Shown piece by piece: positions 3,865 to 7,372 of a stretch of DNA of 7,372 nucleotides (its first letter is position 1; each line of letters starts with the position of its first letter). The stretch comes from Candidatus Sodaliphilus fimicaballi. GTDB taxonomy: Bacteria > Bacteroidota > Bacteroidia > Bacteroidales > Muribaculaceae. The stretch covers positions 1 through 7,372 of the forward strand of contig JAGHTV010000537.1 in assembly GCA_018065165.1 (NCBI GenBank). Direction: 5' to 3'. Position numbers and translations under genes: made by a program. Below the pieces are notes generated by a model, which searched no databases, was not told the origin of the DNA, and was given only the letters and a program-made list of their open reading frames with translations.

Positions 3865-4731
3865 ATGAGACAACTAAAAATCACAAAATCAATCACCAAT
3901 CGCGAGAGCGCATCGCTTGATAAGTATTTACAAGAAATTGGTCGTAAAGAACTTATTACAGTTGATGAAGAGGTAGAACTCGCACAACGCATTCGCGAAG
4001 GTGGTCCTGCAGGACAAGCCGCTCTTGATAAACTCGTTAGCGCCAACTTGCGTTTCGTCGTTTCAGTAGCAAAACAGTATCAGAACCAGGGATTAAGTCT
4101 GCCTGACTTGATCGATGAAGGTAATTTAGGCCTGATTAAGGCAGCTCAGAAATTTGATGAAACACGCGGTTTCAAGTTTATCTCTTATGCAGTATGGTGG
4201 ATTCGTCAATCAATCCTTCAAGCGCTGGCCGAGCAATCACGCATCGTGAGACTCCCCTTGAATCAGGTGGGCTCATTAAACAAGATTGGTAAGGCTCTTT
4301 CTCGTTTTGAGCAAGAGAACGAGCGTCGCCCTTCAGCCGAGGAGTTGGCAGAACAACTTGATGTACCCGTTGACAAGATTTCTGACACAATGAAGGTGTC
4401 AGGTCGTCACGTGTCAGTTGATGCCCCCTTCGTTGATGGCGAAGACAACAGTTTACTCGATGTAATTCCAAACGATGACAGCCCCATGGCCGACTCTTCG
4501 CTCAATCAAGAGTCACTCTCAAAGGAAGTTAATCGTGCACTTGACCAACTTAATCCGCGTGAAAGCGAAATTCTCAAGATGTTCTTCGGCATTGGTTGCC
4601 AAGAAATGACACTTGAAGAAATCGGTGCAAAGTTTGATCTTACACGCGAGCGTGTACGCCAAATTAAGGAAAAGGCAATACGCCGTCTCAAAGGACAAAA
4701 GAGCAAATTACTCAAGTCTTATCTAGGATAA
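3865..4731 (+). CDS. rpoD: Primary (housekeeping) RNA polymerase sigma factor, Bacteroidota short form
   Basis: This is the vegetative sigma factor that directs RNA polymerase to TTTG/TAnnTTTG promoters such as those seen in this window. The 288-aa protein lacks region 1.1 and the large non-conserved region of E. coli sigma70, as expected in this phylum. Region 1.2 covers about 15-50 ([16 protein letters not shown]). Region 2 covers about 55-125, including [18 protein letters not shown] and the -10-recognising [16 protein letters not shown]. Region 3 follows (about 130-215), and region 4.2 has the helix-turn-helix [20 protein letters not shown] (249-268). The segment [14 protein letters not shown] (44-57) seems two or three residues longer than the Bacteroides sequence I recall. 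It is a single-gene unit with its own promoter and a strong terminator just downstream. Identity is essentially certain. Confidence 0.97.
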
Positions 4732-4755
4732 TTTAATTTATCCACAAGTTACAAG

Positions 4756-4790
4756 CTGGAGTCTCACATCGAGGCTCCAGTTTTTATTTT
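4756..4790 (+). terminator. Rho-independent terminator of rpoD
   Basis: CTGGAGTCTC (4756-4765) pairs with GAGGCTCCAG (4771-4780) over 10 bp with a single G-U wobble, around the 5-nt loop ACATC. The T-rich tract TTTTTATTTT (4781-4790) follows at once, and AAG before the stem can extend pairing with the first T's. The hairpin begins 25 nt after the rpoD stop and insulates the corA leader from read-through. Confidence 0.92.
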
Positions 4791-4832: not shown

Positions 4833-4840
4833 TACCTTTG
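4833..4840 (+). promoter_or_regulatory. Probable -7 element of the corA-yraN promoter
   Basis: TACCTTTG matches the TAnnTTTG -7 consensus and is identical to the -7 box of the tgt promoter. No TTTG lies 19-21 bases upstream (the bases there read about TTAC), so the -33 box is weak or absent, which may suit a regulated promoter. Transcription would begin near 4845-4848, about 20 nt before the small leader ORF and about 146 nt before corA. Confidence 0.6.
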
Positions 4841-4866
4841 CAATACTAACCAATTTTAATTTATAT

Positions 4867-4920
4867 ATGGACGATACAGTTCCTTTACCCTATCAGAAAA
4901 CTTATTTATTAATTGCTTAA
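4867..4920 (+). CDS. Putative 17-aa leader peptide upstream of corA
   Basis: An ATG in an A/T-rich context typical of Bacteroidota starts (AATTTATATATGG) opens a 17-codon frame, MDDTVPLPYQKTYLLIA, ending in TAA. It sits about 20 nt after the likely transcription start, entirely within the 5' leader of corA, and is followed by 73 nt of potential alternative hairpins. It has acidic residues at 2-3 and prolines at 6 and 8. The enterobacterial Mg2+-transporter leader peptide MgtL, as I recall it, also has 17 codons with acidic and proline residues near its N-terminus. No homology is claimed. It could be a chance ORF; start context, position and the structured downstream region are the reasons for listing it. 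Confidence 0.4.
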   Translation: MDDTVPLPYQKTYLLIA

Positions 4921-4924
4921 TTAA

Positions 4925-4992
4925 GAGCAAGCAACCGACTAATACCTAGTCTGTTCCTTTGCTCGCATTGAGCATAACATCACGGAACAGAC
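4925..4992 (+). promoter_or_regulatory. Candidate two-state RNA leader controlling corA translation
   Basis: Two mutually exclusive folds can be drawn. State A pairs GAGCAA (4925-4930) with TTGCTC (4959-4964) and encloses a GACTA/TAGTC hairpin (4937-4941 with 4947-4951). State B pairs GTCTGTTCC (4949-4957) with GGAACAGAC (4984-4992), a perfect 9-bp stem ending one base before the corA ATG, and encloses TGCTC/GAGCA (4960-4964 with 4970-4974). Bases 4949-4951 and 4960-4964 are used in both states. State B would hide the corA initiation region. No T tract follows either fold, so control of translation (or Rho access) is more likely than intrinsic termination. Pairing was found by eye; no energy calculation was made. 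Confidence 0.45.
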
Positions 4993-4993
4993 A

Positions 4994-5917
4994 ATGAAAG
5001 AATTCATTCTATTTGGAAAAGGGTTCAAGAAAGTCGACACCTGGCAAGACGGGTGTTGGATAAATATGCACAACCCAAGTGCTGGTGACTTGACTTACCT
5101 TAAAGAATTAGGTGTTCCCAGTTCTTTTGTCAGCGACATCAAGGATACCGACGAGCGTGCCCGCACCGAGAGTGATGGCAACTGGCGATTAACAATCTTG
5201 CGTCTGCCTTGTGAGACCAATGATGTTGATATTCCATTCTCAACAATCCCTGTTGGTATCATCACCAATAAGAAGCTAATTATCGTATTAAGTTACTTCA
5301 ACAATCCGGTAATTAATGATTTCATCCAGTTCAACACCCTCAAGAATCACGAAATCAATAATTTTCTCACACTCACACTGCGACTGATTATGTCGTCGGC
5401 CGTATGGTTCCTGAAGTTGTTGAAACAAATCAACAATAGCATTAATAATGCCGAGGACAACCTGGAGCGCCGATTAAGAAACGATGACCTCTTGAAAATG
5501 CGAAACTTGCAAAAGAGTCTCGTGTATTTCAATACCGGCATTAGAGGTAACGAATCGCTACTTATGCGACTAAAGACGCTTTACCAAAACTCAGACCTTC
5601 TCGACAAGGATCTAGTTGAGGATGTTGACATTGAGTTGCAACAGGCACTCAACACAGTAAATATTTACAGCAACATCTTGACTGGTACAATGGAAGCGTT
5701 TGGTTCAATCATATCCAACAACTTGAACTTGATAATGAAACGCATGACCAGTATCACTATTATATTGCAAGTGCCAACTCTTATTGCAAGTTTGTATGGT
5801 ATGAATGTAAAATTGCCGCTTGAATCCAATCCCATTGCATTCGTACTGATCGTGCTCACTTCAATTTTACTATCGGCAAGTGCATTCCTGCTCTTTAAGA
5901 AAATCAAGTGGTTCTAA
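4994..5917 (+). CDS. corA: CorA-family magnesium/cobalt transport protein
   Basis: CorA proteins are homopentameric inner-membrane channels that import Mg2+ (and Co2+ or Ni2+). The 307-aa product has the standard layout: a cytoplasmic alpha/beta domain (about 1-120), long helices that form the funnel (about 120-250, with charged stretches such as NNAEDNLERRLRNDD), membrane segment 1 (about 251-268) ending in the signature YGMN (268-271), a short acidic periplasmic loop (KLPLESNP), membrane segment 2 (about 280-300) and a basic C-terminal tail KKIKWF. The GMN selectivity motif is intact, so the channel should work. It follows a presumed leader of about 146 nt with a small ORF and alternative hairpins. 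There is no SD, and yraN begins 6 bp downstream, indicating a two-gene operon. Specificity for Mg2+ over Zn2+ or Co2+ is inferred from family. Confidence 0.94.
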   Translation: MKEFILFGKGFKKVDTWQDGCWINMHNPSAGDLTYLKELGVPSSFVSDIKDTDERARTESDGNWRLTILRLPCETNDVDIPFSTIPVGIITNKKLIIVLSYFNNPVINDFIQFNTLKNHEINNFLTLTLRLIMSSAVWFLKLLKQINNSINNAEDNLERRLRNDDLLKMRNLQKSLVYFNTGIRGNESLLMRLKTLYQNSDLLDKDLVEDVDIELQQALNTVNIYSNILTGTMEAFGSIISNNLNLIMKRMTSITIILQVPTLIASLYGMNVKLPLESNPIAFVLIVLTSILLSASAFLLFKKIKWF

Positions 5918-5923
5918 ACATAT

Positions 5924-6301
5924 ATGGCACAACATAATGAATTTGGACAGTTTGGAGAAAAGGTCGCTTGCGAGTTATTAATTTCAAAGGGTCTAGTAAT
6001 ACGCGAGACCAACTGGCGACTCAATCATCTCGAAGTAGACATTATTGCTTACGACGAGAAAACAAGCACCTTGCATATCGTTGAAGTGAAAACTAGGCGT
6101 ACTGCATTATTTAATCCTATGGATTCCATCAACTATTCCAAACAGAAGAATCTCATTAATGCTGCTAATGGCTATATAAGATATTACCAATTGCGATGTG
6201 GAATACAATATGATGTGATCTTTGTAATAGGATCGCAACAAAACTATAAGATTGAATACATTCCCAACGCATTCAGACCGAGATTAAAGACTTACAGGTA
6301 A
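5924..6301 (+). CDS. yraN: YraN/UPF0102 family nuclease-fold protein
   Basis: A small (125 aa) soluble protein of the UPF0102 family, which has a restriction-endonuclease-like (PD-D/ExK) fold related to Holliday-junction resolvases; its cellular role is not settled. Visible family features are FGQFGEKVACELLISKG (7-23, with Glu12), the LEVDIIA segment (36-42; GEIDLIA in most members) carrying Asp39, and VEVKTRR (53-59) with Glu54 and Lys56. Together Glu12, Asp39, Glu54 and Lys56 would form the metal site. KQKNL (73-77) is another common family element. The ATG lies 6 bp after the corA stop with no SD, so it is probably translated from the corA transcript. The usual genomic partner of yraN in other bacteria, rnhB, is not here. 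A strong terminator follows. Confidence 0.9.
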   Translation: MAQHNEFGQFGEKVACELLISKGLVIRETNWRLNHLEVDIIAYDEKTSTLHIVEVKTRRTALFNPMDSINYSKQKNLINAANGYIRYYQLRCGIQYDVIFVIGSQQNYKIEYIPNAFRPRLKTYR

Positions 6302-6304
6302 CAC

Positions 6305-6335
6305 AAAAAAAGGCATCGATTTCTCGATGCCTTTT
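6305..6335. terminator. Bidirectional Rho-independent terminator between yraN and rplI
   Basis: AAAAGGCATCGA (6308-6319) and TCGATGCCTTTT (6324-6335) form a perfect 12-bp stem with the 4-nt loop TTTC. On the minus strand the hairpin is followed by a run of seven T's (from A's at 6305-6311), so it should stop the ribosomal protein operon efficiently. On the plus strand the T's at 6332-6335 serve corA-yraN. It starts a few bases after the yraN stop and lies about 25 bp from the rplI stop. Confidence 0.92.
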
Positions 6336-6359
6336 ATATTGTGAGAATTTATTATCAAA

Positions 6360-6815: not shown

Positions 6816-6824
6816 AAATCTTAT

Positions 6825-6830
6825 TCCTCC
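6825..6830 (-). promoter_or_regulatory. Strong Shine-Dalgarno sequence of rplI
   Basis: Read on the minus strand, GGAGGA lies 9 nt before the rplI ATG. A strong SD is unusual for Bacteroidota, and none of the plus-strand genes in this window has one. The 10-mer GGAGGAATAA is shared with the rpsR site. Confidence 0.85.
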
Positions 6831-6839
6831 AGTTTTAAA

Positions 6840-7109
6840 TTATTTCATCAAGTCAGTTACGAAGGGGAGCAATGCCAAGTGGCGAGCGCGCTTAACGGCG
6901 CGAGCTACGCGACGTTGGAACTTGAGAGAAGTACCAGTGAGTCGGCGGGGCAGAATCTTACCTTGCTCGTTCAGGAATTTCTTCAGGAACTCGGGATCCT
7001 TATAATCGATATACTTGATACCGCTTCTCTTGAAACGGCAATATTTCTTCTTCTTGTTGTCCACTGAGAGCGGAGTCAAATAGCGGATTTCACTTTGTGC
7101 TTGTGCCAT
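6840..7109 (-). CDS. rpsR: 30S ribosomal protein bS18
   Basis: bS18 binds with bS6 to the platform of the small subunit. The 89-aa protein shows [20 protein letters not shown] (19-38), [17 protein letters not shown] (45-61) and [20 protein letters not shown] (64-83), the core of the family. Phe64 stands where E. coli has Tyr (TGTRAKYQRQ). A short N-terminal extension (about 17 aa) precedes the conserved part. In Bacteroidota ribosomes bS18 is one of three proteins, with bS6 and bS21, that hold the 3' end of 16S rRNA so that the anti-SD is hidden. The gene lies 19 bp after rpsF and 24 bp before rplI, in the common rpsF-rpsR-rplI order but without ssb or priB between. It has its own strong SD. 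Confidence 0.97.
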
Positions 7110-7115
7110 AATTAT

Positions 7116-7121
7116 TCCTCC
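7116..7121 (-). promoter_or_regulatory. Strong Shine-Dalgarno sequence of rpsR
   Basis: Read on the minus strand, AGGAGGA lies 6 nt before the rpsR ATG, in the 19-bp gap after the rpsF stop. It shares the 10-mer GGAGGAATAA with the rplI start region. Because bS18 helps hide the ribosomal anti-SD in this phylum, an SD in front of its own gene is potentially regulatory. Confidence 0.85.
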
Positions 7122-7128
7122 TATTTCT

Positions 7129-7372
7129 TTAAGCGTTAGTTTCTACAGTTTCTTCTTGTGCAGGAGCAGCTTCCTTAGCGGCCTTCTTGAGGCTACGACG
7201 CTTAACAGCATACTCAGCAGCAAACTTGTCAAGACGGAAAGTAAGGAAACGAATAACCTTCTCGTCACGACGATAAGCAGTCTCGAGCTTAGCTACTACT
7301 GTAGGTTCAGCATCGAATTCAACAAGAGTGTAAAAACCGGTAGTTTTCTTTTGGATGGGATAAGCAAGCTTG
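7129..7372 (-). CDS. rpsF: 30S ribosomal protein bS6, C-terminal part (5' end outside window)
   Basis: The minus-strand frame is open from the right edge to a TAA at 7129-7131 and encodes the last 80 residues of bS6. It includes [20 protein letters not shown], matching the family core (KLAYPI...YxxxxF), and [20 protein letters not shown] (the VLRxLT-like strand of the ferredoxin-like fold). The protein ends in a charged Ala/Glu-rich extension ([19 protein letters not shown]), like the acidic tails of other bS6 proteins. bS6 pairs with bS18 on the subunit platform, and in many bacteria the bS6-bS18 complex binds the leader of this operon to repress it; that leader would lie beyond the window. 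It is the first visible gene of the operon, with rpsR 19 bp downstream. Confidence 0.95.

Follow-up and report, generated by a model that had tools for sequence, protein, structure and literature searches.

The 5' leader of the corA gene in the stretch of DNA analysed here (7,372 nucleotides, hereafter called the window) is probably a ribosome-read switch, consisting of a conserved short open reading frame (ORF) with an acidic start and two mutually exclusive RNA folds, through which low Mg2+ would likely turn corA on. This reading is based on the conservation of the ORF start and the promoter box, on changes on both sides of the helices, on the predicted coupling between a ribosome on the leader and the corA start, and on the recurrence of the module upstream of mgtE genes. 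The module may well be a portable and widespread Mg2+ sensor of Bacteroidota, in which an acidic-start mini-ORF and a three-arm RNA gauge ribosome survival in front of genes for both CorA and MgtE channels. The preliminary description of the leader was confirmed in what it had observed and supported in its interpretation.

The corA gene of the window is the only CorA gene found in the source genome (approximately 80 % complete by estimate), in which one mgtE gene (L258), with an upstream region lacking the leader, and two CNNM genes were also found. The 5' neighbour of corA encodes a sigma-70 factor (Table 1). One terminator-like site was identified in the window with a consensus scan, compared with 0.1 in shuffled sequences, and it is located between these two genes. 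It is followed by the sequence TACCTTTG, which is presumably a Bacteroidota-type -7 box, as judged from the promoter motif TANNTTTG. Since both the hairpin and the box precede corA, the gene is probably transcribed from a promoter of its own, separate from the sigma-factor gene.

Table 1 Features of the window surrounding the corA leader
Feature	Positions	Strand	Remarks
Sigma-70 factor gene	3865-4731		Pfam; 5' neighbour of corA
Terminator-like hairpin	4753-4783	+	Consensus scan; between the sigma-factor gene and corA
Putative -7 box TACCTTTG	4833-4840	+	TANNTTTG type; leader ATG 26 nt downstream
Leader ORF MDDTVPLPYQKTYLLIA	4867-4920	+	17 codons; stop codon 4918-4920
State A outer 5' arm TGCTTAAT	4914-4921	+	Includes the leader stop codon; pairs with ATTGAGCA; constrained fold
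State A inner 5' arm GAGCAAG	4925-4931	+	Pairs with C4957 and TTGCTC; within the expected footprint of a ribosome at the stop codon of the leader
State A innermost hairpin	4937-4951	+	GACTA (4937-4941) with TAGTC (4947-4951); constrained fold
State B 5' arm GTCTGTTCC	4949-4957	+	Overlaps bases of state A
State A inner 3' arm	4957-4964	+	C4957 and TTGCTC (4959-4964); constrained fold
State B inner hairpin	4960-4974	+	TGCTC (4960-4964) with GAGCA (4970-4974); fold prediction
State A outer 3' arm ATTGAGCA	4967-4974	+	Pairs with TGCTTAAT; constrained fold
State B 3' arm GGAACAGAC	4984-4992	+	9-bp stem with GTCTGTTCC; one base short of the corA ATG (4994)
corA, CorA-like Mg2+ transporter	4994-5917	+	PF01544, E 1.6e-46

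The 17-codon ORF that had been reported upstream of corA is present in the sequence and is preceded by the -7 box. Two named relatives, bacterium UBA1790 (L031) and also Candidatus Sodaliphilus limicaballi (L032), have 84 % CorA identity with the window. The promoter box and the sequence ATGGACGA were kept in all four close corA loci (72-84 % CorA identity), the remaining leader being mostly diverged, and the leader peptides of these loci begin with MDDTVPLQ, MDDTVPKD, MDDSVPLN and MDDSVPLN. The genus of the window itself mostly contains another type of corA with a short 5' region, the product of which has 39-43 % identity with the CorA of the window (L005-L028). The leader was absent from 22 of 24 same-genus corA upstream regions, and of the two matches the one in L030 (MDDYPAYCCSSQG) was judged real and the one in L025 due to chance. 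Apart from L030, 23 genus loci were read, and in 18 of these a -7 box lies only 25-55 nt upstream of corA itself, leaving no space for a leader.

An order-level sample was formed from the 86 of 393 genomes that had a CorA match with an E value of 1e-30 or better; two of these (G285 and G359), in which the match starts within the gene, were dropped, giving 84 upstream regions. A leader was defined as an ORF of 6-40 codons beginning with M[DE][DE] and located between -300 and -60 of corA. Such an ORF was found in 67 of the 84 regions and in 0 of 84 on the opposite strand, compared with a mean of 1.03 and a maximum of 4 per 84 in dinucleotide shuffles. Conservation of the ORF among relatives, which had been set beforehand as a point on which the proposal could fail, was thus found both in the four close relatives and across the order. 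The 17 corA genes without a leader include two (L138 and L141) with the variant start MDGVP. That a chance ORF lies next to chance hairpins would suit the frequency with which short ORFs and hairpins occur, and also the 17 relatives without the ORF, but this explanation was ruled out by the conservation counts, by the coupling and by the leaderless controls described below; with both helices covarying as well, its probability is negligible.

The leader was also found in 6 of 35 newly read corA upstream regions of the class, a seventh match (L163) being judged due to chance, and in 4 of 22 corA upstream regions of the phylum. In the corA families f188 and f193 of the phylum search, 0 of 10 upstream regions had it (matches below 1e-50). 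The loci sampled leave out G688 and G740. With duplicate loci counted once, the set used below consists of 82 leaders: 67 from the order, four from the close relatives, L030, six from the class and four from the phylum. L025 and L163, as likely chance matches, and the MDGVP loci were not counted. A combined pattern of box and MDDY, searched over 247 genomes, occurred at 46 places compared with approximately 37 for a backward control (hand count), and the peptide-plus-box pattern alone is unspecific. Thirty of the 46 places were read, of which 9 lie before CorA genes, 8 start frames of at least 153 codons and 13 start shorter frames that are not before CorA genes; close examination among these 13 was confined to L237, described below.

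The early acidic residues, which had been singled out in the peptide of the window, vary least among all features of the leader peptides, Asp or Glu occupying positions 2 and 3. To avoid circular counting, the leader start was also chosen independently of the peptide, as the first ATG 10-45 nt downstream of a TANNTTTG box, and M[DE][DE] was obtained at 47 of the 56 loci having such an ATG. Codon 3 in these 56 loci was GAT in 23, GAC in 14, GAA in 10, GAG in 1 and another codon in 8, indicating that the residue and not the base is conserved at this position. When all 82 leaders were counted, codon 2 was GAC in 71 and GAT in 8, and codon 3 was GAT in 46 and GAC in 20; codon 2 thus shows a preference at the level of the bases in addition to the constraint on the peptide. 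In 72 of the 82 leaders residue 4 was one of Y, G, S and T, and 70 had Pro or His among residues 4-6, with little shared further on. Pro was present at residues 4-8 in 53 leaders and absent there in 29. The leaders were 8 to 34 codons long, and among the 74 leaders having an upstream box, 67 had the nearest one at a distance of 15-33 nt from their ATG.

The Pro and His residues at positions 4-6 would also suit a switch that reads leader translation in response to a signal other than Mg2+, such as the supply of Tyr-, His- or Pro-tRNA, the activity of EF-P or the presence of ribosome-targeting drugs, and proline-rich leader ORFs of Salmonella have been described to respond to EF-P (available text of PMC6460261). 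This is quite unlikely, given that the leaders have no common regulatory codon, that their constant residues are the Asp or Glu at positions 2-3, and that the targets belong to two unrelated families of Mg2+ channel. An amino-acid attenuator of the trpL kind was likewise rejected, the peptides being without a common codon run and the window without a terminator-like site after the leader.

The minimum-energy fold of positions 4846-4996 had a z score of -3.28, and 2 of 200 shuffled sequences were as stable. Two alternative sets of stems before corA, one of them with a 9-bp stem (GTCTGTTCC/GGAACAGAC) adjoining the corA ATG, were present as had been proposed, and they have bases in common and are mutually exclusive. 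GAGCAA of state A was found at 4925-4930 as described, but the extent given for this state was too small, since the constrained fold also includes the pairs TGCTTAAT/ATTGAGCA and GACTA/TAGTC.

The usual layout of the leaders contains an arm 2 at or just past the leader stop, an arm 3 in the middle and an arm 4 at the start of the channel gene, arm 3 pairing either with arm 2 (helix A, open) or with arm 4 (helix B, closed). In L030, for example, arms 2, 3 and 4 are AAGACTC, GTTGAGTCTTG and CAAGACTCAAC. Covarying stems, the second sign of conservation to be looked for, were found in the best-aligned group (alignment A2; 12 corA leaders, mostly of the MDEGPY type), in which changes on both sides were observed in 7 of the 8 pairs of helix A and in 7 of the 9 pairs of helix B; these counts were matched by 0 of 500 shuffles, and both covariation signals were lost when the partner was shifted by 1-3 columns. 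A joint alignment of ten corA and five mgtE leaders gave both-sided changes in 6 of 8 pairs of helix A and 7 of 9 pairs of helix B (0/500 shuffles). In alignment A4, 4 of 9 pairs of helix A changed on both sides, which was equalled by 44 of 500 shuffles; no shuffle equalled the covariation score of this helix, whereas 353 of 500 equalled its count of different pair types. The consensus folds were weak for A4 (-1.9 and -0.9 kcal/mol) and for helix B on alignment A3 (-2.3 kcal/mol), and the covariation counts exclude A3, with its weak helix B consensus, and helix B on A4, in which an arm is misaligned.

The effect of a ribosome on the leader was predicted from the cost of opening positions -15 to +6 at the corA start, either with the leader empty (the first 18 nt covered) or with a ribosome at the stop (the leader covered up to 10 nt beyond the stop codon). 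The energies come from one folding model and the sequences are related. The predicted cost at the corA start of the window rose from 4.1 kcal/mol with the leader empty to 9.6 kcal/mol with the ribosome at the stop. The mean cost over the 82 leaders was 12.06 kcal/mol with the ribosome at the stop and 6.80 kcal/mol with the leader empty, whereas controls with shuffled spacers (20 dinucleotide shuffles each) gave 6.46 and 6.81 kcal/mol, respectively, that is, a mean difference of 5.25 kcal/mol, hereafter called coupling, compared with -0.35 kcal/mol. Coupling exceeded the shuffle mean in 75 of the 82 leaders and exceeded 1 kcal/mol in 68 of 82, compared with 19.9 % of the shuffles. Because the sequences are related, coupling was also averaged by family, with L031, L033 and L034 assigned to the family of the window; it was positive in 36 of 39 families (sign test, p = 3.6e-8) and exceeded 1 kcal/mol in 33 of them. 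When the start region was given other widths, the coupling was 4.35 and 4.94. No coupling (-0.22) was observed in 86 leaderless corA upstream regions with five pseudo-leaders each, including L138, L141, L025 and L163. Reversed spacers, in which the hairpins are kept but their order is lost, retained 1.92 kcal/mol, with 50 of 82 exceeding 1; coupling thus comes partly from the hairpins as such and mostly from their order.

A ribosome with the stop codon in its A site has its 3' edge approximately 9-12 nt after the stop. When the covered edge was moved along 73 leaders, the predicted cost was 6.5-6.9 kcal/mol as long as the edge was at least 12 nt upstream of the last base of the stop codon, reached its maximum of 12.1-12.2 kcal/mol with the edge 9-12 nt past the stop and was approximately 4.0 kcal/mol at 33 nt. 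The maximum coincides with the 3' edge of a terminating ribosome, and the device therefore seems set to respond to a completed ORF. The earlier suggestion that a ribosome at the leader stop favours a closed corA start is thus borne out by prediction, the closing being greatest with the ribosome edge just past the stop.

Coupling above 1 kcal/mol was absent in 14 of the 82 leaders (L003, L033, L077, L080, L081, L092, L107, L108, L109, L111, L113, L130, L131 and L144). Five leaders of the MDDGP/MDEGP type (L107, L109, L113, L121 and L122) have a spacer of approximately 200 nt and a coupling of -0.5 to 2.4 kcal/mol, and perhaps represent a different layout.

Bacteroidota are thought to make little use of Shine-Dalgarno (SD) sequences, and the preliminary description had proposed a switch that works without SD initiation. 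In the window, the arm at the corA start (GGAACAG) contains no such motif, but the proposal does not fit the leaders as a class because 57 of the 82 leader-bearing genes have an SD-like GGAG or AGGA at -20 to -4 relative to the corA start, compared with 3 of 17 leaderless genes of the order. The same motifs were found upstream of 2 of the 82 leader ORF starts. SD-like sequences resembling GGAGGAATAA were also seen by eye a short distance upstream of the starts of the L9 and S18 ribosomal-protein genes of the window (minus strand; 6816-6840 and 7110-7130).

The distribution of the SD-like motifs suits hiding of the start site and bears on an alternative in which the ORF and the folds are real, the main output being premature transcription termination, for example Rho-dependent, with hiding of the start as a by-product. 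Such an output would have precedents in corL and mgtL, both of which act on transcription (PMC11552253 and PMC6460261, as far as available). It is nevertheless considered unlikely here, the closing fold reaching the channel start in the loci drawn and the consensus scan giving no terminator-like site downstream of the leader in the window.

Riboswitches for Mg2+ are known from other phyla, and the M-box and the Mg sensor are Mg2+ transporter leaders with alternative folds, as is the leader described here. The alternative helices are also long, as would be expected if the RNA itself sensed Mg2+ and the ORF were a mere passenger. This possibility is very improbable, since the ORF start is best conserved while the RNA diverges, the folds respond to where the leader stop lies, and a search of Rfam at the gathering score gave only tRNAs in 20 related loci. 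In the window itself, Rfam 15 gave no Mg2+ family at E values up to 1, the only match being a weak one to rimP at 6278-6354 (25.9 bits, cut-off 47). Known RNA families, including the M-box and the Mg sensor, were thus rejected for the window and the 20 related loci.

A ribosome-read switch in response to Mg2+ is further supported by the recurrence of the module on mgtE, the product of which (PF01769) belongs to a Pfam family of Mg2+ channel different from and unrelated to that of CorA (PF01544). Matches to MgtE were found in 130 of 295 genomes and the best-scoring loci were examined, of which 50 were read and 49 retained (L298 was dropped because the start lies outside the locus). The leader module was present upstream of 5 of these 49 genes, which are the best-scoring ones of the 130 genomes and not a random sample; two further upstream regions (L255 and L318) were judged chance matches and not counted. 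The five peptides begin with MEEDPYRS, MDEGPYPS, MDDVPGY, MDDGPYHS and MDDVPDYHS, and the arms are TGTAAGG, CCTTACA and TGTAAGG or near variants. Coupling was predicted in all five leaders (3.3-8.4 kcal/mol) and in each case exceeded the highest value among the 20 shuffles of that leader. A device restricted to CorA was thereby ruled out. A pattern of the three-arm core, searched over 188 genomes, occurred at two places, the known mgtE locus (G066) and a place in G106 that is not a leader.

The CNNM/CorC family has been linked to Mg2+ export, and no leader was found before CNNM genes in the 30 upstream regions examined. In a single case (L237:1532-1657; G110:C50), a 41-codon ORF beginning with MDDYHAER follows a -7 box and terminates a single base short of where a CNNM/CorC-type gene starts (PF01595, E 1.5e-47). 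This could be the same sensor in reverse wiring, in which completion of the ORF leads to re-initiation.

In the mechanism proposed for the corA leader, transcription would start from the -7 box and the leader ORF would be translated, as the codon-level constraint suggests. At low Mg2+, the Asp or Glu at positions 2-3, soon followed by Pro or His, may destabilise the ribosome, as early acidic residues have been described to do at low Mg2+ in enterobacteria (PMC8092293 and PMC11552253, as far as available). Loss of the ribosome in the first codons is predicted to let fold A form, leaving the corA start free (on). At high Mg2+, the ORF would be completed and arm 2 covered, and fold B is predicted to hide the corA start (off). 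Control would thus act mainly at translation initiation of the channel gene, and its sign, on at low and off at high Mg2+, suits an importer.

If true, Mg2+ would be sensed via ribosome stability far outside the enterobacteria, by hiding of a start site that is often SD-like, and the leaders would make it possible to test directly whether destabilised ribosomes serve as a Mg2+ gauge in general or are an enterobacterial speciality. A mini-ORF start of, as a rule, ATG GAC GAY would then flag Mg2+-controlled channel genes in many Bacteroidales. It would also mean a ribosome-controlled translation-initiation switch in Bacteroidota, of which few are known, and one that might be used to grade gene expression in gut commensals.

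No description of a Mg2+ leader switch in Bacteroidota was found in the literature covered, which includes a minority of subscription papers and no preprints. In the Bacteroides thetaiotaomicron transcriptome, long 5' UTRs with short ORFs that recall leader peptides have been noted (PMC7366714), and corA does not occur in the main text of that paper. The available part of the paper on mgtQ (PMC8092293) mentions no member of Bacteroidota.

By analogy, the closest known systems are mgtQ, mgtL and corL, the following comparisons being drawn from the available text of the respective papers. The mgtQ ORF of Salmonella, located between mgtC and mgtB, is likewise very short, has acidic residues early on (Asp2 and Glu5) and is linked to a Mg2+ transporter gene on which alternative stems hide or free the start of translation (PMC8092293). 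It differs in being within an operon, before the gene of a P-type ATPase, and in that a ribosome on the mgtQ ORF favours the open fold, whereas a ribosome at the leader stop is predicted here to close the start (PMC8092293). With mgtL of Salmonella mgtA the corA leader would share alternative stem-loops and the lowering of transporter expression by completed leader translation, but the mgtL leader is 264 nt long compared with approximately 150 nt here, acts by transcription attenuation and not by the translational control predicted here, and has prolines at positions 3, 5, 7 and 9 in place of an acidic pair at 2-3 (PMC6460261). The corL of Escherichia coli and Salmonella is also a corA leader ORF, with translation inverse to corA expression, but it acts through Rho-dependent termination, has fewer acidic and proline residues and belongs to a different phylum (PMC11552253). 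Common to all of these is a short ORF 5' of a Mg2+ transporter gene with early acidic and/or proline residues, and exclusive folds coupled to the position of the ribosome, which here are supported by prediction and covariation with 14 exceptions among the 82 leaders. The logic of the leader would accordingly be that of mgtL and corL, and its RNA output would resemble the start-site hiding of mgtQ.
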